Below, piece by piece: positions 1-57,413 of a stretch of DNA of 64,000 nucleotides. The stretch is from contig JANDJZ010000111.1 in NCBI GenBank assembly GCA_027943245.1, positions 1 through 64,000 of the forward strand, in the 5' to 3' direction. Within the stretch, counting starts at the first letter, position 1; each line of letters starts with the position of its first letter. A program made the translations under genes and the position numbers. The notes under the pieces are model-generated. The model saw only the letters and a program-made list of their open reading frames with translations, did not search any database and was not told where the DNA came from. Source of the DNA: Acanthamoeba sp. SK_2022b (taxonomy: Eukaryota; Discosea; Longamoebia; Acanthamoebidae).

Positions 1-88
1 CTAACCCTAACCCTAACCCTACCCCTAACCCTAACCCTAATTTGTTAACCCTAAGCCCTAACCCATTTATAAGCCCTAACCTGAAAAG
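1..88. repeat. Terminal telomere repeats (CCCTAA)n, degenerate inward
   Basis: The window opens with CCCTAA hexamers in the orientation expected at a left chromosome end. The first 40 bases are nearly perfect, with one variant unit. After that come broken copies spaced by AT-rich bases up to about position 88. This marks the physical or near-physical chromosome end. Confidence 0.93.
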
Positions 89-841
89 TCATGTTATACA
101 TATGGTTAGACTCGCCTCGATGTGCTGAGCACGACGCACTTTATGGCGCATTGTATAAATGGTTTGTTGCAGAGTTAGCTCAATTTTTAGTTACGGTGCA
201 ATCACCCAGTATGGGTCCAAATTTTAAAAGTTGTGTTTTACATACTATCTGATAGCTCTTACTGAGCTGAATACAACGCACTTAACCACGCGCAAAACGG
301 AGACACGGATGCAGAGTTATCGCGTTTCCAAAATTGGCAATGTGACTTGCGAAAATTTCTAAGTCCGTTGGCCTCACCAGTCAAATCAGCTCTCTTGTAC
401 TATGAGTGAGTAACCTCAAAACACTTGTATACCCCATTAACCCCCCCAAAAACACGTTTCCCGCTGTCCGTTTTGCTCTAGCTATTTTTGTTAGCCCACA
501 ATTGAATTTACAACCCTTTTCGCCTCATACAAAATTTTGTGAGTCCTCTCTGCATACAATGTCTCATCTTCTATGACCGACTTGTATATCAAACTGATGC
601 CTGAATTATGTTCTATCACAGAAAATTTAGTTCATTGTATACCGATACGTAATACCAGAGATCAATAAAATTCTTGACAATATTAAATCGATAATAAATA
701 TTGTTAATTGTCTATCTCCGGTACTTGGATAGATCATGAATTTTCAATAGGTGCAACAGATAGAGCGTAAGTTATAGTATATTTACAATACTTAACATTT
801 GGTGTAAAAAAAAGAGGTAAAGCAGGAGACCCACCGGTATA
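89..841. other. AT-rich subtelomeric spacer, no gene seen
   Basis: This stretch is clearly richer in A and T than the chromosome body and has no open frame worth calling. It still contains ordinary CpG dinucleotides, unlike the next unit. It lies between the terminal telomere tract and an interstitial telomere block, so it may be a remnant of an insertion or of an older chromosome end. Confidence 0.6.
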
Positions 842-860
842 CCCCTAACCCTAACCCTAA
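842..860. repeat. Interstitial telomere repeat block
   Basis: Three consecutive CCCTAA units, in the same orientation as the terminal tract, directly precede the recombinase-bearing unit. A second block lies at its other end (4752-4764). Confidence 0.9.
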
Positions 861-874
861 ACAAAAGTCTTCTT

Positions 875-1141
875 TTATTTTTTTCCAAGTCTAGCCAATG
901 ACTTGTGTGGCCTCTTGCATATCTTAGGTTGCAAATGAAGTTCATGAAGAGGGGCTGCTCGAGACTTGGTCTTGAAAGGCTTGAAGGGCAAGGACTTGGC
1001 CAAGGGCAGGGGGCTGGCAGGTGCTCGTCGATAGACCGTTGTAGATGGCTCTGGCACTTGGACTGTTGCTGGCTTGTTGACTGGCATGGCAGGCATGGAT
1101 GGCCAGAGTGCTTTATAGTGGTAGTGGATGTAGTTGGCCAT
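875..1141 (-). CDS. Possible small basic protein of the subtelomeric element
   Basis: An 88-codon frame runs divergently from the recombinase gene. The C-terminal third is rich in Lys, Arg and Pro; the N-terminal part is Pro/Ala-rich with several internal Met codons. No domain is recognised. A TATATAAA sequence lies at 1168-1175, only about 27 bp upstream of the first ATG, so a downstream ATG near 1099 may be the real start. The frame could be a chance opening in a CpG-poor region. It is listed because it ends close to the telomere-block boundary and is free of stops. Confidence 0.3.
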   Translation of the reverse strand: MANYIHYHYKALWPSMPAMPVNKPATVQVPEPSTTVYRRAPASPLPLAKSLPFKPFKTKSRAAPLHELHLQPKICKRPHKSLARLGKK

Positions 1142-1235
1142 AGTGTGGTTCGAGTGGAGTGTAGCTGTATATAAATGACTGGCAGGGTTGCTGCAGTTTT
1201 ATACCTGGGCCAGAGTCATGTATCCATTGACTTTT

Positions 1236-1375
1236 CATCCTGTTCCACTGTTGTGTACTGTGCTGTACTGTCCAACAGTGTAATCCCTTGGAATTTCATC
1301 CTGTTCCACTGCTGTGTACTGTGCTGTACCATACAACAGTGTAATCCCTTGGAATTGCATCCTGTTCCCCTGTCC
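1236..1375. repeat. 61-bp tandem repeat, about 2.3 copies
   Basis: Near-identical units begin around 1236, 1297 and 1358 (offset 61 bp). Each contains a TGTGTACTGTGCTGTAC-like core and an ATCCCTTGGAAT-like core. The array lies about 230-370 bp upstream of the recombinase start codon. Confidence 0.8.
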
Positions 1376-1408
1376 TCCTGGTGACTTGAACAACCAGGAG
1401 TGAATGCC

Positions 1409-1486
1409 ATTGGTAACACAGAGGGAGTTGATGTCATTGGTTGCATAATGGGAGTTGCAGTCATTGGTCAGCTGTGTGAATAAATA
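1409..1486 (+). promoter_or_regulatory. Promoter-like block: three evenly spaced ATTGG boxes and a TATA-like site
   Basis: Inverted CCAAT boxes (ATTGG) lie at 1409-1413, 1436-1440 and 1463-1467, exactly 27 bp apart. They are followed by AATAAATA at 1479-1486, about 116 bp before the recombinase ATG at 1602. The arrangement looks like a working upstream region for that gene. This is based on sequence only. Confidence 0.55.
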
Positions 1487-1601
1487 GCCAGCACCCAGCA
1501 GCACAATTTCATCATTACACTACTCCCTGCTACTTCACCAACTACTCTCACCACAATCATCATCAACCCATCAAGAGCTACTGCCTGCCTGCCTGCCTGC
1601 C

Positions 1602-2239
1602 ATGGAGAATCCCAACAAGACTGAGCTTTCAAGTGCCAAGCAAGCAGACCAGGCCTATGTTGCCAAGCTTCAAGAGTTCAGGGATGCTGGAGTGCTCTAT
1701 GGTAAACCTCCCTTAACCCTTCTGCTAGAATCCTTTTTGTTTTTTTTTTTACAATACACTTACCTTTAATTTTCTCTTGCAGAGTTGGAGGATATCAAGG
1801 ACAGCCCCAGAAAGCCTCGTTTTTATGGCTTGACTGGAAAGGAACTGCTGAGTGTGCCTCATGTGCAAGCATGGCTGGATGACAAGAACTCTCTTGCTCT
1901 GAGCATGGCCAGACCAGAGGTACCACCACCACCACCACCACCACCACCCACTCTTGCTTGGTTGGCTTACCTGCATATATTCTTGTTGTTGTTGTTGTTG
2001 TTGTTGGTGATGATGATGCTGGTGGCCATATAAATCAGGTTGTTGCTCAAATTGAGAGGAACCTCAAGGACCCTCATGCACCCCAGCTAGTTAATATCAG
2101 GGATGCCAAGAAGGCTCTCAAGGATATGTCTTCAGCTCTTGGCAACTTCTTTGGATTCTGGAAGAAGTTTAAAGGTATAACTACAACTTCATATGTACTG
2201 GTTTTTATTTAGTGAATGCTGCCACATAAATTGACATGT

Positions 2240-2278
<39 letters not shown>

Positions 2279-3473
2279 GATCTTTCTCTGGTGCAGATCT
2301 TCCTCCCTCCATTGCCCTGCTCCAGGATCCTGAGAGGGTAAAGGAGTGGATCACCTGGCTGGAGGCCTATTATGGTCCAGGTTCAACAGTCAGGAACAAG
2401 TGCTGGCTGGTCAAGGGCTTTGTCAAGTTCCTCAGGACTGAGCTCAAGGAGGCCACCAACAAGGAGCTCACCAACCTCATTGTTTGCAAGAAGCTATTGG
2501 GGAGAGCAGCTAACAGGCACAAGCTCCAAGCAGCAAAGAATAGAGTGCTGCTAGCAGATGAGAAGCACATGACTGCCAATGGTAAAACAATACCCCTTCT
2601 CTCACATGCATACACAGTATCCATGTATATGCTAGACTCTGACTTTACATTCTCTCTCTGTGTGTATGTGTGTATATATATATATCTATACACCTGGTCT
2701 TAATAGGCAAGTTCTTTACCAAAGAGGAGGGAGTGGCATTCTTCTCATGGCTCCTCAAGGAATGGGCAGCCCATGTTGACCTCTTCTGTAAAATCAGAAC
2801 TCCAGCTGAGATAAGCCAGCTCCCTGGCAAGTCAAGGAAGCTCAGGAGGAGGAGAGCCCTGCTTCTCCAGAGGTGTCTCATGGGCATGATGCTTTACCTT
2901 GGTGGTGGTCTGAGAAAGCAGGTCTTTGTGAACCTCTATGTGGACCACCTCAAGTGGGATGAGGAGGAGATGGTCATGCAGGTTGGTGATGAAAAGGTCA
3001 CCAGGGTCAATACAGACCACCTGCCTCTGCCTCCCCAACTCTTTACCTACATAGAGTTCTTCAAGCAGAGGGTGAGGCCTTTCCTCTGCAAAGACCCTGC
3101 TCAGCCTCCCTTGGCTCTCTGGCTCAGCTCTGGTGGCATGCCTCTCAGCACCACCACATTTGCTCTCCAGCTCAATGCCCTGGTCAAGGAGTTCAACCCT
3201 GAGCTCACCACCACAGCCATAGACTTCAGGAGGATGACTTGCACTGACATCTTTGCTGGTGCTCCTCCTCCTCCTCCTCCTCCACCACCACCACCACCAC
3301 CACCACACACTCACATATAATTATACCCATGACAGAGAGAATTCCTATGGAGGAAGGTGAGACTCTGGAGCACTTCCACAACCGGTTCAGTGACTACCTG
3401 GGAGTGTCAGTCAAAATCATGAAGAGTGTCTATAACAGGTGTCAAGTTGTACCCTCTTTTGCACTTCCCTCTA

Positions 3474-3509
<36 letters not shown>

Positions 3510-4038
3510 TCACTCTTTTTTGACATAACCACCATGCAGGCATGATCTTCACAAGAAGCACAAGGGCACTCTCAAGGCAGCCAATTCTGGCAAGGTGGCT
3601 GAGGCTGATGGCAAGGTCATGGCTGAGGTGGAGAGGAAGATGGCTTCAGCTCTTGAGCCAGAGGCCAAGGTCCAGAGAGTCAACATGAAGAAACGCCAGG
3701 CCAGAGTCACTGCTGACGACAGTCAGTGGGAGGCCATCTCTGGCCACAAGAGAAGACAGCAGAAGAGGAGGAAGAAGGAGGAAGAAGAGGAAGCAGAGGA
3801 AGCAGAGGAAGAAGAGGAAGAGGAGGTAGAAGAGGAAGAGGAGGAAGATGAGGTAGAAGAGGTCTATGGTGAAGTGGAAGAGATACAGCAGATCAGAGTT
3901 GGCGAGGCTGGACAGCTGGAAGTCCTGGTCAAGTGGGCTGGCTACTCAGCTGACTTTAACAGCTGGGAGCCTTTTGACCAGATGGGAAATGCCCTTGAAT
4001 GTGTTGAGGCTTTCCTACTCCAGGCGAATCTGTTCTGA
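1602..4038 (+). CDS. Tyrosine-recombinase-like protein with C-terminal chromodomain
   Basis: Seven exons join in frame: 1602-1701, 1783-1919, 2039-2174, 2297-2581, 2707-3258, 3336-3438 and 3540-4038. They give 603 residues with no break. The C-terminal half of the recombinase region has the spaced hallmarks of tyrosine recombinases: an Arg in GGGLRKQ (about residue 289), an FRRMT box (about 394-395) resembling the second catalytic Arg, and LGVSVKIMKSVYNR with a candidate nucleophile Tyr near residue 436. A basic segment and a long Glu tract follow. The last 60 residues resemble a chromodomain (LVKWAGYS, then WEPFDQM). The family usually cuts and rejoins DNA through a 3'-phosphotyrosine; the chromodomain may steer the protein to methylated histone H3. 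The expected third-box His/Trp is not obvious. A Crypton-like assignment is inference; it could also be a domesticated recombinase. Confidence 0.75.
2235..2276. repeat. (TG)n microsatellite in a recombinase intron
   Basis: A TG dinucleotide run lies in the intron 2175-2296. Other introns of the same gene carry CCA, TTG, CTC and CT/CA runs, so short tandem repeats fill most of its introns. Confidence 0.85.
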
Positions 4039-4751
4039 ACACTTGACAACACAAAAAACCACCAGGTATTCTTTAACAGAAAGCAACAACAACAACAACA
4101 AATACAGTTTGTTTTTGCCATCTTATCTTGCTATGTTTTTTCAAGGGTTGTTTGTTTAGAGATGATATCTTTTACTTTGGTTGTTGTTGTTGTTGTTGTT
4201 GTTGTTGGTGTGTTTGTGTGTGTATGTGTTACTGATTTTGAGTTTATAGGGAGCATAGCACCACACACACACAGACACACAAGACACACATATGCCAAAC
4301 ACATACGTTACAAAGGTAAAAAATACGACTTGTAAATTGTCTTTCACTGCAGAATCACCTCTGAACCTGGGCAAACTACATATCATCCTGTAGCCTGTAA
4401 TATTCCCAGTCAGATGCACTCCTCTAATAATTGCCTTATTACCACATTGCAAAGCTCGCGGAAGATTGTATATGGACACTATCAGCTACGCAAACATTGT
4501 TTTCAATATTTCTCCTCAATGGCTGAGTTTCTGAAGCTCTACATAGGCTCATTTTGAAGAGCTCATGCTCTACTACAAGTATGTATTTGTTTAGTGTTGA
4601 GCAACAATCCCGCAACCGTAAAATATAATTATTTCTGTTGAATTTTTTGAACAATTCTGCCAAAAATATACCAACTTTGCCAAAAAAGCCTAGTAACCAT
4701 ATCAACATGTTGGCAAACATGTCAGACAACTACTATTGCGTGCTGTAGCCT
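4039..4751. other. AT-rich 3' part of the subtelomeric element
   Basis: After the recombinase stop there is a (CAA)n run near 4087, a (GTT)n run at about 4180-4206, and GT/CA-rich sequence to 4285. AT-rich sequence then runs to the telomere block. A 96-codon minus-strand frame (4439-4729) has a hydrophobic start but no recognisable domain, and I do not call it. Polyadenylation signals for the recombinase probably lie here. Confidence 0.55.
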
Positions 4752-4764
4752 AAACCCTAACCCT
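4752..4764. repeat. Second interstitial telomere repeat block
   Basis: TAAACCCTAACCC, two telomere units in the same orientation as the chromosome end, closes the recombinase-bearing unit on its centromere side. Confidence 0.8.
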
Positions 4765-5990
4765 CTATATTACTTCTTTCTGCCCAGACCTGGTCCAGGC
4801 ACATATAATTGTTGTAGATGCACAAACCTTCTGCCCAGCATTGGTCTGAGTTTTGTTGTTTCGCCCATTGCCATAAGCCCTTGCATTTCCCCAGTTGGGC
4901 TGTTGCATGTAGATGTGTAAGCACCTCCATTGCCATCTCTGTTGCATCATTGCCATGTAGGAACTTGCACTTCATCTCCACTGTGTTGGTAAGCCACCTG
5001 ACCAGGTTGGAAATGTGTGTCACCTTGTTCCAGATCATGTTGTCATGCTGTCTTCTGTCACTATCCTCATCACACACCCACGCCAGTGGTCTCTTTCACT
5101 TTCTTGTTGGGTTGGGCTGCAGTCCCAGTGTGTGCAATCTCTCCTCCTTGGCATAGAAGATCACATGGATGTTGCTTTGATTTCGTTTTGCCTGTTCTTG
5201 GTCATTCAGCCCAGGTCTGGCTGCACTGCCATCCACTGGTCCTTGTTGTATACTGGATGCTGCATCTGTTGCCTCAGAATTGTTATGCCTTTGTTGAGAT
5301 GGGAATGGGATGGGTTGATGTGCACCTTGCACTCCTGCTTCAAGTTTGTCTCATTGTTTCAGCTTGCTTGTTGTGTGTGTTGGCAGTGGGGCAACTTGGT
5401 TGGATTGTTGGTGTGGTGGTGCTGTGGTGACAACCAAGGGAGGAGGCCTTTGTTGCACAGGGCAAGCCAACACTGCCTGATGGCTGAGATTGCTGTGAGT
5501 TGCTGCTGCTGCTGTTGTGGAGGCAGTGCCATGACAATGACTTGCATGGCCCAGAGAGGTGATGGTGTCACTGCTCTTGTGGCCACCAATGCAGCCAGAT
5601 GGTGCTGCTGTAGTTGATGGTACTGCTGTAGAGCAAGCACAGCACTTCTACCCATGCCATGGCTACTGCCACCACCACCACTGCCACTGCCACTGCTGCT
5701 TGGGTTGCTTGCTGGTGCTGGTAGAATTTGCACTGGGTGGTGTGACCCAGTCAGGGCTGTAGCTGCTGTCATTGCTAATCTGTGTGTTGTGGGCTGTCCT
5801 GCTGTGACTGGTCGGGCAATCTCTGCTGGTGAAGACAATGATGCTGGCACTGTTGTAGATGAAAGATCATGTGAGTGTGACATGTCTTTGGGTAGAGACT
5901 GGAGCTTCTTGTTGGGGGGGGTTGTTTGCTTGAGGTGTGGGCTTGGAGTGACACTGACCATTGCTCCACTGAAACACCAAATTGCATCAT
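4765..5990 (-). pseudogene. Possible decayed minus-strand gene, Gln/Ser/Thr-rich
   Basis: Minus-strand pieces at about 5961-5359, 5332-5096 and 5077-4757 read like consecutive parts of one protein. The first is a Ser/Thr/Pro-rich and Gln-rich region, the last a Trp- and Cys-containing region ending just inside the telomere block. The last two pieces are in different frames with only about 18 bp between them, too little for an intron, so at least one frameshift is needed. No family is recognised. CpG is nearly absent. Both the existence and the limits of this gene are uncertain. Confidence 0.3.
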
Positions 5991-6149
5991 AGCTGTTGGT
6001 TTTGGTGTGCAGATTGTTTCTCCAATTTAGTAAAACTGCTTACCTTTTACATGCCCTTGCTGTTACTGTTGTCAAATTATTTGTGGCTGCTGGGTGACAT
6101 TTATTCTTCCCCTGCCCCTGTCTGGGCAGAAATATATCATCTTTAATAC

Positions 6150-6563
6150 TTACTTAGCTGTGATGAGTTCCACTACTGCTTGTGCTGGGACAAGAGAAGT
6201 ATGGCTCCCACCTTCCTGCAGTGCCATGAGCTCATCTGACTGGATGATGTGGCAGGCAACTTCCACTGGTTGGAGTATGACATTGCCCAATGCAATGCCA
6301 TAGCACATGTCGAGGCAGTGCAATGAGAAGGAGGCTGTGGCCAATAAAAAAAGAAGCAAAAACTTGAGTGCATGCTTGAGGTCAGCAAGCTCCAATCCCT
6401 CTGCAATCAAGTTGGTGAGGATGGAGTTTGGCAGATTTTCAATGGTGGCATCAGCCAGCTGTGTGGAGTGCAAGCAGAGGCTCTTGACCTCACACATGAC
6501 CTCACAGACCTCACAGATGATGCCACTAATTTGATGGATCAAATTGCCAGTGTGGCTGAGCAA
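6150..6563 (-). pseudogene. Possible exon or gene remnant, helical, Cys/Leu-rich
   Basis: A 137-codon minus-strand opening reads as a long, probably helical protein with regularly spaced Leu, Ile and Val and a hydrophobic run of about 15 residues. It looks more protein-like than a chance frame, but the ends do not show a clear gene structure and no family is recognised. It may belong with the flanking minus-strand pieces at 6678-7040 and 4765-5990 as one decayed gene. Confidence 0.3.
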
Positions 6564-6677
6564 TCTGATATGAATCCAATGTTTACAGTGTGTCGCCCCC
6601 TGTTGCAGCCTTGTTGCAGTGCTTACTTGGATACTAAATCTCTCATATCAGTGGGTCACACCAATGCTGCCACCCCT

Positions 6678-7040
6678 TCAAGCTTGATTGGTGGCAAGCA
6701 TCCAGGTGGCAGACCATAGGCTTGCAGCAAAGCAGTCTGCCACACAACTGCCACCCTCTTGTTTGCTGGACCTCCTTGCCTGTGCACCATCATCATATAT
6801 CATTTGCTCCACAGTGGCAGCTTGACCTCCAGTGTCAAGTCTCTCCCTAGTGAAGGAACATCTAGTGCCAACAATGAGGAGAACAAGTATGTACCAGCTT
6901 GCACTGACAGCGCCACCTTGCTTACTTTGCCATTGCTTCCCTGTAGGCTCCTTGTTGCACACAAGTGGGAGCTTCTTGCATGTGAATATGACAGTGATGT
7001 TCTGGAAAGCATCTTTGACTTCCAGCAAGGAATCTGCCAT
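6678..7040 (-). pseudogene. Possible exon or gene remnant, minus strand
   Basis: A 120-codon opening begins with a plausible mixed segment (residues 1-40 with paired Cys and Lys) and becomes less convincing after a hydrophobic stretch. An overlapping opening in a second minus-strand frame (7123-6800) is equally long, so the true frame is unclear. Not recognised. Confidence 0.22.
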
Positions 7041-8597: not shown

Positions 8598-9755
8598 ATG
8601 GAGACCGCCACCGTGAGAGACGTCCTTAGCCACCAACAGCTTCCTGCCCAGATACACGTAGTCACTAAGTCGGCCACTGTGAAGGAGGTCCTTGACACGC
8701 TCTACCGCCACCACATCCTTGCCGCGCCTGTCATTGATTTCGAGTCCAAATGCGAAGGTCTGGTCGACGTTCTCGACGTGTTGTCGTTCCTGCTCCAGGT
8801 CGCTTCGGAGCCTTTCGAATCACGCGTGTCGCCCCCCTCGACCAACCTTCACCACGACGACATGGACATGCTCGTCCAGCGCAGCGAACGCTTCAACGCC
8901 GCCAATGTTGCCTCAGAGGCACGTACTCCTCCCCCTCCCACCGCCTCTGCGGCAGCGTTGTATTATAGAGCTCTAATATGTGTTTACACTCTTATTCCTT
9001 GTCATGGTGTGTCACTCTACCACTCCACAGGCGAATCTGTCCACACGAAACCCGTTCCTTCCCTGCACTCTGGGCGCACCACTGATCGAAGTCCTGCGCA
9101 ACTTCGCGCGCGGGGTGCATCGAGTGCCCGTGGTCGACTCTGAGGACCCTACCCGTATCGTGGCCATGCTGACTCAAACCGACGCCAACCGCTTCCTCGC
9201 CACCGACCCTGAGAAGTACCTCGGCAAGGAACGCGCCCACGCCTCCATCAGCGACCTCGGCCTCGTGAGTGGAGCCGACAAGGTCGTCTCCGTATCCAGC
9301 GACACCAAGGCCATCGACGCCTTCATTACCATGCACTCCAAGGGTGCGTTTTGTCCCCACCGCTCCCCACCTCCCCTGCGAGTAGCGAGTACTGACCTAC
9401 TACTGATATGTGTGGTTGTGGGTCAGGTCTAAGCGCAGTGGCGGTGGTGGATAGCGAGGGCGCGTTCCAGGGCTGTCTTAGCGCGACCGACCTGAAGCTT
9501 ATAAGAGACTATAGGTTCCAGGCTCTCCTGCTCCCCGTCATCCAGTTCCTCGAACACGTGCGAACGGAGGAGGGCCACCAGTGCAAGAGCTTCCGCGTGT
9601 GGTGCATTCCCACTACGCCGCTGCAAACAGTAGTCAAGAAGCTGGCCGAGGGACGCGTCCACAGGGTCTTCGTCGTCGAGCCCACCACGATGAAGCCGCA
9701 AGGCGTTGTCTCGCTCACCGACATTGCTCGCATCGTCACTTCAAAGGCGCCGTGA
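8598..9755 (+). CDS. Four-CBS-motif protein (AMPK-gamma/SNF4-like size)
   Basis: Three exons (8598-8918, 9031-9343, 9427-9755) give 320 residues. CBS motifs are visible as repeated 'hypothetical hinge then LVD/LTD' endings: GLVDVLDVLSFL near residue 60, AMLTQTDANRFL near 155, CLSATDLKLIRD near 230 and GVVSLTDIARIV near the C-terminus. That makes four motifs, or two Bateman modules, the layout of the nucleotide-sensing gamma subunit of AMP-activated kinase and of plant CBSX-type proteins. The length matches yeast SNF4 (about 320). CBS pairs bind AMP, ATP or other adenosyl ligands. The first intron fits only with a GC donor (GAG/GCACGT), which keeps the frame. Which subfamily it belongs to is not settled by eye. 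Confidence 0.85.
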
Positions 9756-55078: not shown

Positions 55079-57413
55079 TTAAGGTGTCTTCTTGTAGTTG
55101 CCGCCTGCCTGGACGCGCTCGTCGTCGAGAATCTCCTTGACCTTGGTGGCCTTCCACAGCGCATGGAACTTGGAGTAGTTGAGCTTGCTCTTGAGCCAAC
55201 CGAACACGAGTCGGTCGAGGTTGGGCACCTCCCGTTGGCCGCCCGCGGCTGTCCGTTGGGCCTTGAGCACGTCGTCCTTGATCTGGAACAGCAGCCCCTT
55301 GTACTTGGCGTCCACGTTCTTGATGGCATTGGCATAGGCCCTCCGCCCACTGGCCGACGACTCATCAAAGCACTCTTCGGGCAGCTGTACAACAGCAGCC
55401 CCTTGTACTTGGCGTCCACGTTCTTGATGGCATTGGCATAGGCCCTCCGCCCACTGGCCGACGACTCATCAAAGCACTCTTCGGGCAGCTGTACATGACG
55501 TTAGGCTGCAGCGTTGGAACAGGAAGTGGAGAGAGGAGGAAAGACAAGTACTTCGTTTACGAATTGCTGCACAAGGCGGGAGATCTCGTGAATGAGGTCC
55601 TTGGTCTTATCCTTGAGCTCCGCGAGGAAGGCGTGGATAGGCAGAGGCAGCACGTCGAGCACGTCGTCGATCGTTCCGTCGAAATATCTCTCGATGGCGA
55701 TGTTACGGTTCGAGAGCAGGTTTCCTGCGTTCATCAACGGTGAGTCTACAGACGTTTATGATGATCATGGGACCTTGCTTGCGCACCAGTGATAAGCAGG
55801 TGCTTATCAGAGTAGAACCGGTTCTTCATCTTCGCAACCGGCAGCCCATTCCAATATACAACGAATCCCTCGGGCGTCTGTTCAGCCGTAAAGTGGCACA
55901 CGTCAGTACAGGAGGCATTTCCCTGCCTCGAGAGAACGAGAGTTCGTACCTCTCCGTAGAGATCGGTCCGCTTGGCCTCCTTCTCGATCCACTCGTTGGC
56001 CTGCTTCAGGCTCTGGACGCCGATCGAGGCAAAGTCGTAGTATCGCGGCCTCGAAATCGAAGGACCCAGCTGCGTGGCGCGAAAGACGGGGAAGAGTTGA
56101 GCGGAAAGACGTGTTCACGACATGCGACACACGAGACATGAGCGACTCACCTGCAGAGCGATGACATCGAGTTGTTCCCTGGTCATCAGTTCACCAGAGT
56201 GTCTGTGACGCGCTCCGATGAGGTAAAGTTTGTCCTGTGGGCACCAGGAGCGATTTAGACGTCGAGCCAAGGCAAGTTCAACCACGCCACAACGGGGACG
56301 CTGGTCACCTGCTTGTACTTATTTACAACTTGGTTCTGCTCGCAGCAGAGCTCAAACAGGTAGGTCCAGCCCTGATCGAAGACCTTGAACAGCCTGACAC
56401 AGGTGAGACGTGAACGATCAAGCAAGAGCGAGAGGGAAGGGTACTCCTGGAGCGCATCGTAGTCACCCTGTGCACGGTCGCCGAGGAAGAGGCCCCAGAA
56501 GAGCGTCTCGAACTTGACCGCCGGGGTCACCATCCCAAGCGTGGAGATACGCCAGCCCTGAGACAAATGTAAAAGCAAAGTGTGAGTGTGAACAGAGAGA
56601 GAGAGAGAGAGAGAAGTGCTGCCGTACGTGATAGTGTTGTGGCTTTCGGATGAGGCCGCGCGCATGCTTGGTATCTTCTTCCTCGCCCTGCTGCTGCTGA
56701 CGCTGACCGTCGTTCGTGGCCTGCAGGACGCGCGGCAGGACCTTCTTGAACCTTCGCGCCCTCTTTTCGATGAGGCTGGCCTTTCCCAGCCCTTGGAGGC
56801 CTGTCTCGGTCTCGCCTTGCGTGACTCCCTCGCTTTCCTCGGCCTCCTCCTCGTCGGGAACGAGCAAAGATTCGCTTCTGGCTCGCTCCAGCTCCAGTGC
56901 AGTCTCATAGACGGCGTCAAGCGTCGCGGGCGAGCTCCACCAGAATTGGATGCACGTCCCGTCGGCCTTCTCGGCCATCCCGAACGAGGCGCAGTTGGCG
57001 TCGAACACCTTGGGGTTGGCAACTGGACACTCGGCCTCTTGTTGGTTGAAGAATTTCTCGAATGGACGGCCAACGATGATCCAGCCGTGGTCGATCCCTT
57101 CTTCAATGCTGGCTGTTCTTCGCTCAAAGATTATGCCTCGCGCCTCTTTAACCTCCTCGTTCCAGGTCTCGGTGAGGCACATCTCGTACTTGAATTGATA
57201 GAAAATAGAACCCTCCGTGAAGACATTGACACCATAGAGGGTGAAGAAATGTTCCATAAGGTCCGTGTCTGTCCATTGTTTCTTCTCCTGATCTCCCTCA
57301 TCCCTGCAAGGCTTGTTCGCGAGCCACAAACCGGCCGGAAATTGACGGTTGAGATACGCACGGAGAGGTGAAGATGATGAGCTTACGCTACTATCAACCA
57401 AACTGGCTTCCAT
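55079..57413 (-). CDS. ATP-dependent RNA ligase (Rnl1-like)
   Basis: The start is ATG 57411-57413. Nucleotidyltransferase motifs appear in order: ARGIIFE upstream, VGRPFEKFFNQQE, motif I as AEKADGTCI (KxDG, adenylated Lys), a low-complexity insert of about 100 residues (Glu- and Gln-rich) that is not typical, FKVFDQGWTYLFELC (motif III), TPEGFVVY (motif IV) and LPVAKMKNRFYS (motif V, KxKNRFY). A helical C-terminal domain ends GGNYKKTP. Such ligases seal RNA nicks or breaks through an AMP intermediate and are known in phages, some viruses, bacteria and scattered protists, so acquisition by transfer is possible. The order of motifs is complete, so the enzyme is probably active. The last intron ends in a tandem-duplicated 3' splice site (see repeat 55287-55494); only use of the downstream copy keeps the frame. 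Confidence 0.83.
55287..55494. repeat. 104-bp perfect tandem duplication over a 3' splice site
   Basis: Bases 55287-55390 and 55391-55494 are identical direct copies. On the transcribed (minus) strand each copy contains the acceptor TGTACAG and the first part of the ligase exon that begins CTGCCCGAAGAGTGC. Since 104 is not a multiple of three, using the upstream copy shifts the frame. Confidence 0.95.

Follow-up and report, generated by a model that had tools for sequence, protein, structure and literature searches.

The window analyzed here (64,000 nucleotides of Acanthamoeba sp. SK_2022b; GenBank assembly GCA_027943245.1, contig JANDJZ010000111.1, positions 1 to 64,000 of the forward strand) carries, at 861 to 4748, a copy of a multicopy element. 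We lean towards reading it as a member of a terminal, chromosome-end-attaching family of mobile elements encoding a tyrosine recombinase (YR) and a chromodomain. Comparison of the copies shows that the inner (3′) end is defined and is joined, directly or via at most about three telomere repeats, to a chromosome end that is eroded or broken. The outer end faces the chromosome tip and is usually 5′-truncated and directly capped by telomere, and further copies are found outside older ones, in head-to-tail mosaics.

The contig (C94) begins at window base 1 with a terminal telomere array (1 to 40, plus strand; CCCTAA, one unit imperfect). It is followed on the same strand by the 3′ part of a 5′-truncated clade-3 family member (41 to 841, ending CACCGGTATA), a telomere stub forming the 5′ boundary of the element (842 to 860, two A's overlapping the element), the clade-1 copy itself (861 to 4748, exact 3′ end TTGCGTGCTGTAG), and a second stub (4749 to 4763, CCTAAACCCTAACCC) that joins the 3′ end to chromosomal DNA and has its last C in common with the chromosome. 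The inner chromosomal flank (4763 to 6764, no strand assigned) is 99% identical to C110:101584-103586. The window contains 5 exact occurrences of CCCTAACCCTAA; 100 shuffles gave 0. A first-pass annotation had placed the element at 861 to 4751 between telomere repeats of one orientation; the two stubs do share their orientation and the start is retained (859/861), while comparison with contig C763 moves the end to 4748. The left stub adjoins the truncated clade-3 member, not plain telomere. Window positions 859 to 4759 are 98.7% identical to the C763 copy, and outside the element window 1 to 7000 and 5.5 kb of C763 have only telomere and simple repeats in common. The window copy would be 5′-truncated relative to that of C763, provided that a module upstream in C763 counts as element. 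Window 1 to 858 is 97% identical to C537:296-1153, and window 359 to 859 matches C688:6640-7140 at 95% identity; this is where a C688 unit, which itself has YR and chromodomain matches, has its 3′ part.

Copies were searched for in the 45-Mb assembly of the window (73 of 116 first-look candidates scored, so counts are lower bounds). At least 98 matching stretches were found on at least 25 contigs, making up a multifamily set. On all 25 contigs listed, the matches are no more than about 11 kb away from a contig end, so that the refutation by location named in the first-pass annotation (copies elsewhere, without telomere flanks and in another gene context) did not come about. A terminal telomere array is present at the matching end in 20 of them (C94, C763, C313, C209, C534, C15, C688, C466, C488, C205, C423, C713, C537, C478, C786, C224, C1077, C143, C371, and C522) and absent in C610, C712, C110, C439, and C376. 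Because contigs average 40 kb, proximity to an end is by itself only mildly informative, and the argument rests on the telomere arrays. C404 and C556 each have a gene-less fragment of the clade-1 3′ region at 3 to 6 kb from a contig end; the 1 kb around either fragment contains no telomere repeat. Chains of two or more units occur in C313, C610, C688, C786, C537, and the window, and orientation is constant within a family except for inverted fragments in C522 and C713.

Thirty inner junctions from six families were scored, each family keeping its own end motif; the motifs had been taken from the alignments prior to counting, so this was not a blind test, and flanks were sorted as telomeric or not by the author's own reading. 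Clade 1 (window, C763, C209, C610, and C313) ends ...GCGTGCTGTAG in 5/5 copies, with an identical terminal base. In clade 2, 13 copies end ...GGCTTAAATCAG (one copy GGCTTAGATCAG) and share their terminal base, with a different flank in each case (9 of the 13 non-telomeric), which points to an enzyme-defined end. Four further families with their own end motifs complete the 30; the clade-3 junctions among the 30 (n = 5), which may not be independent, have CCCCTAACCCTAA in common. The base following the end is C in 28/30 junctions, and the next two are CC in 27/30. By the sorting described, 18/30 junctions are telomeric and 12/30 are not, and CC starts 9 of the 12 non-telomeric ones (P = 2e-9 at a CC frequency of 0.061). 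The telomeric stub at the scored junctions measures 0 to 20 nt, and the element|CCCTAA phase, with at least 6 nt, is seen in 11/30. No convincing terminal inverted or long direct repeats were found within single elements. Rfam returned no hammerhead ribozyme at the gathering threshold (five sources), E-value scans covering two 3′ regions gave none either, and folding z-scores (−0.22 and +1.26) gave no indication of RNA structure at the 3′ end.

The outer ends vary. Among 14 readable clade-2 outer ends, 12 break at 12 different points (near 193, 750, 1766, 2044, 2550, 2888, 3470, 4020, 4334, 4370, 4517, and 4600 in C15 coordinates), each at a telomere array or stub; the clade-2 copy of C376 is cut on its outer side by the contig end. 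Four of five clade-1 outer ends adjoin telomere repeats if the C763 upstream module is counted as element. This module has seven copies among the matches listed, all at most 0.8 kb from a contig end. In C260, C959, and C522 a telomere array is followed by an identical TGTCTAAATATGG edge, and in C358, C697, C763, and C15 the outer start lies elsewhere. The edge common to three outermost units suggests that in a complete element the outer end, too, is probably defined. In C522 (telomere-left), 403 to 2214 combine this edge, at full length, with a C610-type 3′ end and lack a YR or chromodomain match, and represent a single derivative without the gene or else two truncated units in a chain. In the same region (C522:40000-47163), inverted clade-2 fragments lie further inward. 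Just inside the terminal array, C688 (485 to 528) and C371 (479 to 544, telomere-left) each hold about 25 nt from a clade-3 3′ end together with a stub; this remnant is an extremely 5′-truncated copy common to both contigs. Between its terminal array and an internal stub, C466 has an unexplained outer unit, about 2 kb long.

Two copies record the DNA to which they were joined. C110 continues outward for about 540 bp past the point matching window 4763, where its own clade-2 copy follows, and the window chromosome was therefore cut there, at CTCTATATT, and joined via CCTAAACCCTAACC(C) to the clade-1 3′ end. The inner flank of the C15 copy is 95% identical to C371:25540-26540, 52 kb from the C371 telomere, and C371 is unbroken where C15 carries CCCTAACCCTAACCCTA and a clade-2 3′ end; the flank also matches other contigs more weakly, so C371 may be a paralogue. 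In both copies, 15 to 18 nt of telomere repeat link the element to broken chromosome interior. Five inner flanks were searched in all: that of the window has one second copy (C110), that of C15 has one (C371) besides the weaker ones, and for C209, C763, and C534 no second full copy was found. C371 and C376 have a third end region in common, where the D copy joined is 3′-truncated. The simplest reading of these flanks is that copies were added to ends deprived of their telomere, on which at most about three fresh repeats stood. Insertion into telomeric DNA, in the form first proposed, is not supported by these junctions, in which the fixed end meets a repeat of 0 to 20 nt, 12 of 30 inner flanks are non-telomeric, and the target in the window and C15 is broken chromosome interior.

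The gene of the window copy (1602 to 4038, plus strand) has seven exons (1602-1701, 1783-1919, 2039-2174, 2297-2581, 2707-3258, 3336-3438, and 3540-4038) that join in frame into a stop-free protein of 603 aa, with all introns GT..AG. The same borders were returned by spliced protein-to-DNA alignment with the 603-aa protein, which upholds the first-pass model of one intact product. A stop-free seven-exon alignment was obtained for 6 of 8 loci aligned (window, C763, C610, C15, C534, and C688), while C466 has one stop and C488 is 5′-truncated; the start codons of the relatives are provisional. Retention of introns in the aligned copies argues against a spliced mRNA intermediate. Ratios of nonsynonymous to synonymous substitution (dN/dS; NG86, acidic linker left out) are 0.146 for window-C15 (YR 0.123, chromodomain 0.176), 0.183 for window-C610 (YR 0.127, chromodomain 0.194), 0.153 for C610-C15 (YR 0.122, chromodomain 0.144), and 0.151 for C15-C688, all rough figures, as synonymous divergence between clades exceeds 1. 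The low between-clade values therefore indicate purifying selection on the YR-like/chromodomain gene between clades. The C-terminal chromodomain that had been noticed by eye (residues 549 to 596; 3871 to 4014, plus strand) was confirmed by PF00385 (Chromo; E = 1.2e-7, 32 bits against a cut-off of 25.1) and by PDB chromodomains. In C688:1-8000, an open reading frame on the minus strand (1502 to 2074), upstream of the clade-3 YR gene, resembles a second chromodomain protein by eye.

The YR-like catalytic region (exons 5 and 6; 2707 to 3438, plus strand) was delimited by PF00589 and XerC matches and by conservation. PF00589 matches the window protein with E = 0.0011 and 19.2 bits, under its cut-off of 27.1 bits, and ranks first in Pfam for 5 of the 8 relatives or exons that were scanned (E = 0.0011 to 0.11, all under the cut-off); XerC is the top NCBIfam match in 2 of 6 (E = 7e-4 and 0.017). 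R289 (codon at 2913-2915), K316 (2994-2996), R394 (3228-3230), and Y436 (3431-3433), all on the plus strand, are what we take, with the PF00589 alignment range, to be the catalytic positions; the two arginines and the tyrosine stand where the first-pass annotation had put them. R289, K316, and R394 are invariant in 7/7 rows of the alignment and Y436 in the 6/6 rows that extend that far, and the residues are kept in YR order down to relatives of about 27% identity. Some copies have lost them (Q at 289 in C439; W at 394 in C376 and Q in C371). The proposed recombinase identity thus has conserved R-K-R-Y and a top-ranking Pfam match on its side, and falls below the curated threshold; a divergent YR domain is the weaker but consistent assignment suggested by these sub-threshold profile matches and conserved residues. 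DUF3435, the Starship captain recombinase family, was not among the Pfam matches. A protein search with residues 1 to 500 found no relatives, and an alignment-based one found seven, two from A. castellanii Neff. With one exon as the query for a viral origin, viral contigs gave seven pattern matches and no relative, and phages gave none. Strong phage-integrase matches on C309, C311, C312, and C730 suggest that the assembly includes bacterial contigs.

Several results weigh against a YR-encoding terminal element. No YR match exceeds a curated cut-off, the usual His of HxxR gives way to I or L, or in family F to S, and Val takes the place of the His/Trp that precedes the Tyr. PF00589 was matched in just 1/7 alignment rows, a PHROGs search returned no integrase, and a PDB search with the alignment profile returned chromodomains and no YR in the 60 of 69 matches listed, among which one row was not a chromodomain (polyhedrin, E = 0.087). 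A profile comparison with eight YRs speaks for a YR by its score of 20.25 (best of 100 column shuffles, 16.08; reversed alignment, 15.46) and is weak in itself (probability 1.2%, E = 0.043, 51 columns). Two AlphaFold models were too poor to decide on the fold (pLDDT 49.6 and 53.9), and Foldseek gave no match at E ≤ 0.001 for either, where an unlisted YR is no counter-evidence. Within clade 2, comparisons with the stop-bearing C466 gave dN/dS of 0.575 and 0.541 (YR 0.685 and 0.731). As to the ends, the exact 3′ end is missing in C423, C537, the second D copy of C371, and the C522 pieces; the internal stub of C466, outside the 30 scored junctions, is 46 bp long; and a homology-dependent YR crossover does not account for 3′ flanks that are non-telomeric. 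The clade-2 outer ends of C423 and C713 are not at telomere repeats, and the clade-1 outer end of C313 adjoins the 3′ end of a clade-2 copy instead. In families E and F the gene is directed towards the telomere or contig end, as it also is in a distant copy in C712, and gene polarity therefore does not set attachment polarity. An empty-to-filled event was not seen directly.

For the mechanism we tentatively propose an element without reverse transcriptase (RT), whose own chromodomain-YR would join the fixed end to broken or critically short ends, healing them alongside telomerase and in a way distinct from ends built by retrotransposons. The element's YR would recognize the 3′ end and perform or prepare the joining, probably to a G-rich ...GGG-3′ end; host telomerase would supply the seed repeats and recap the outer end; and the chromodomain might keep the recombinase at heterochromatic ends. 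Since the YR is the sole recombination enzyme recognized in the family, we infer that the joining step is its role, as we infer mobility. The genome encodes a telomerase RNA-binding domain, and Gao is said to have reported chromodomain targeting of retrotransposon integrases in 2008. The explanations overlap in their odds and are not mutually exclusive. A rather unlikely one is terminal reverse transcription in trans (Terminon/HeT-A-like), in which a host RT (possibly telomerase, once it had added a few repeats) would copy element RNA from its 3′ end onto the 3′ overhang of the chromosome, early stops producing the 5′ truncations. It accounts for the anatomy as well as the RT-less proposal or better: fixed 3′ ends, variable telomere-capped 5′ ends, short seeds, and head-to-tail arrays match the Terminon pattern (PMC6431247, in excerpt), and the telomerase domain is at hand. 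Against it, a selected YR would be left without a role, no hammerhead ribozyme was found, introns are retained, gene polarity in family E is opposite, and the directions in E, F, and C712 are awkward for an mRNA-based route. None of the 76 RVT_1 (PF00078) matches in the genome lies within about 11 kb of a copy, and 0/20 RT-bearing contigs begin with telomere (left ends only), which likewise speaks against it. No RT-like open reading frame was seen by eye in nine loci (first 150 aa of at most nine frames each, no Pfam scan). Elsewhere in the genome, C646, C433, and C818 have PF00589 matches beside RVT_1 matches and are probable DIRS-like elements.

Passive spread, for which yeast Y′ elements are the precedent, would carry the gene as a passenger of break-induced replication and exchange at telomere stubs, and we consider it quite unlikely. 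Stubs do separate the units, the unit at window 1 to 858 recurs at 97% identity in C537 above a different inner element, and an identical short clade-3 remnant lies beneath the arrays of C371 and C688; against it, one terminal base at 13 clade-2 flanks (9 non-telomeric) implies an enzyme-defined end, and purifying selection on the YR would be unexpected for a passenger. About as doubtful, if anything slightly more so, is that a YR inserted a circle between telomere repeats in the manner of Cryptons and that the end then eroded in the ordinary way and was healed by telomerase. Such a history would fit the three outermost units with one TGTCTAAATATGG edge beside telomere, the telomeric stubs after many 3′ ends, and the 46-bp internal stub of C466, and it fits poorly with stubs of at most about 20 nt at 30 junctions next to terminal arrays of mostly hundreds of nucleotides, or with broken non-telomeric DNA as the target in C15 and the window. 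Chimeric contig ends induced by repeats are a very improbable explanation, even though subtelomeres are easily misassembled, which has been described for Acanthamoeba Neff (PMC12210455, in excerpt), and some contig sizes are round (C376, 10000; C712, 15000; C110, 105000), since 13 contigs have one exact junction base at 13 different flanks and three of the five inner flanks searched (C209, C763, and C534) lack a second full copy. C404 is also round-sized (52500), as if its ends had been trimmed like those of C376, C712, and C110.

Two features lie elsewhere in the window. Positions 55287 to 55495 hold two perfect head-to-tail copies of a 104-bp unit, far from the element and possibly a recent within-gene duplication, and pieces of open reading frames at 8598 to 9755 resemble CBS-domain repeats by eye.

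To our knowledge, terminal transposons that build or extend chromosome ends (e.g., HeT-A and Terminons) use RT. If the proposed reading is true, Terminon-like anatomy with a recombinase and a chromatin reader, in an amoeba that bears telomerase, would be a second route to element-built ends, and the junctions would be natural, datable records of chromosome breakage and healing. The family may help to explain the variable, mobile-element-rich subtelomeres of Acanthamoeba. The results also suggest that ACA1_307780 and ACA1_278600, catalogued only as chromodomain proteins, are parts of recombinases.

Among known systems, the Terminons/Athena, telomere-associated Penelope-like elements of bdelloid rotifers, are described with the 3′ end at chromosome ends, 5′ truncation by telomere repeats, and head-to-tail arrays (PMC6431247, in excerpt), all as found here. 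They differ in that the family here has a YR and a chromodomain, with no RT found nearby and no hammerhead ribozyme found; it may yet be a Terminon-type giant element with its RT far upstream of the truncations. Chromoviruses also carry a C-terminal chromodomain on a recombination enzyme, which is a DDE-type integrase accompanied by RT, whereas here it is a YR. Cryptons likewise have a YR gene without RT, and their YR genes can contain introns. They are described with an R-H-R-Y tetrad and short (4- to 6-bp) terminal direct repeats (PMC3212892, in excerpt), whereas here the His is I, L, or S and a chromodomain and end attachment are present. As for Crypton-type direct repeats, telomere repeats flank some copies on both sides, and many 3′ flanks are non-telomeric.

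The TATE elements of trypanosomatids encode a YR and lie in telomeric hexamers at GGG^TTA (PMC6681497, in excerpt), and the element|CCCTAA junction here has the same G-strand phase. The first-pass idea of a telomere-associated element loosely parallel to TATE is borne out to this extent, with multiple copies and an intact YR-like/chromodomain gene under purifying selection. TATE is regarded as a YR retrotransposon that also has RT and RNase H, neither of which was found here; set against TATE and DIRS, the copies have no RVT_1 match within about 11 kb. Telomere-inserting nimaviruses of crustaceans also tie a YR to telomere-repeat specificity (PMC10871703, in excerpt); they are large viral genomes inside repeats, their YRs typically have a C2H2 domain, and the excerpt mentions no chromodomain. 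In Acanthamoeba Neff and C3, mobile elements are enriched at chromosome ends (2025; PMC12210455), and the main text of that paper has 0 occurrences of "recombinase" and "chromodomain", and no such element is named in the excerpt. In a survey, A. castellanii is one of the genomes listed as having YR elements, with Dirs1-like ones mentioned (PMC4157794, in excerpt). A YR-chromodomain telomere element was not described in the titles and abstracts of the open-access literature searched with the terms used. Lacking RT, hammerhead, and the His of R-H-R-Y, the family is not filed here as a member of the Terminons or of the Cryptons/TATE; its anatomy is Terminon-like, and its enzyme places it nearest to YR elements (Cryptons, TATE).

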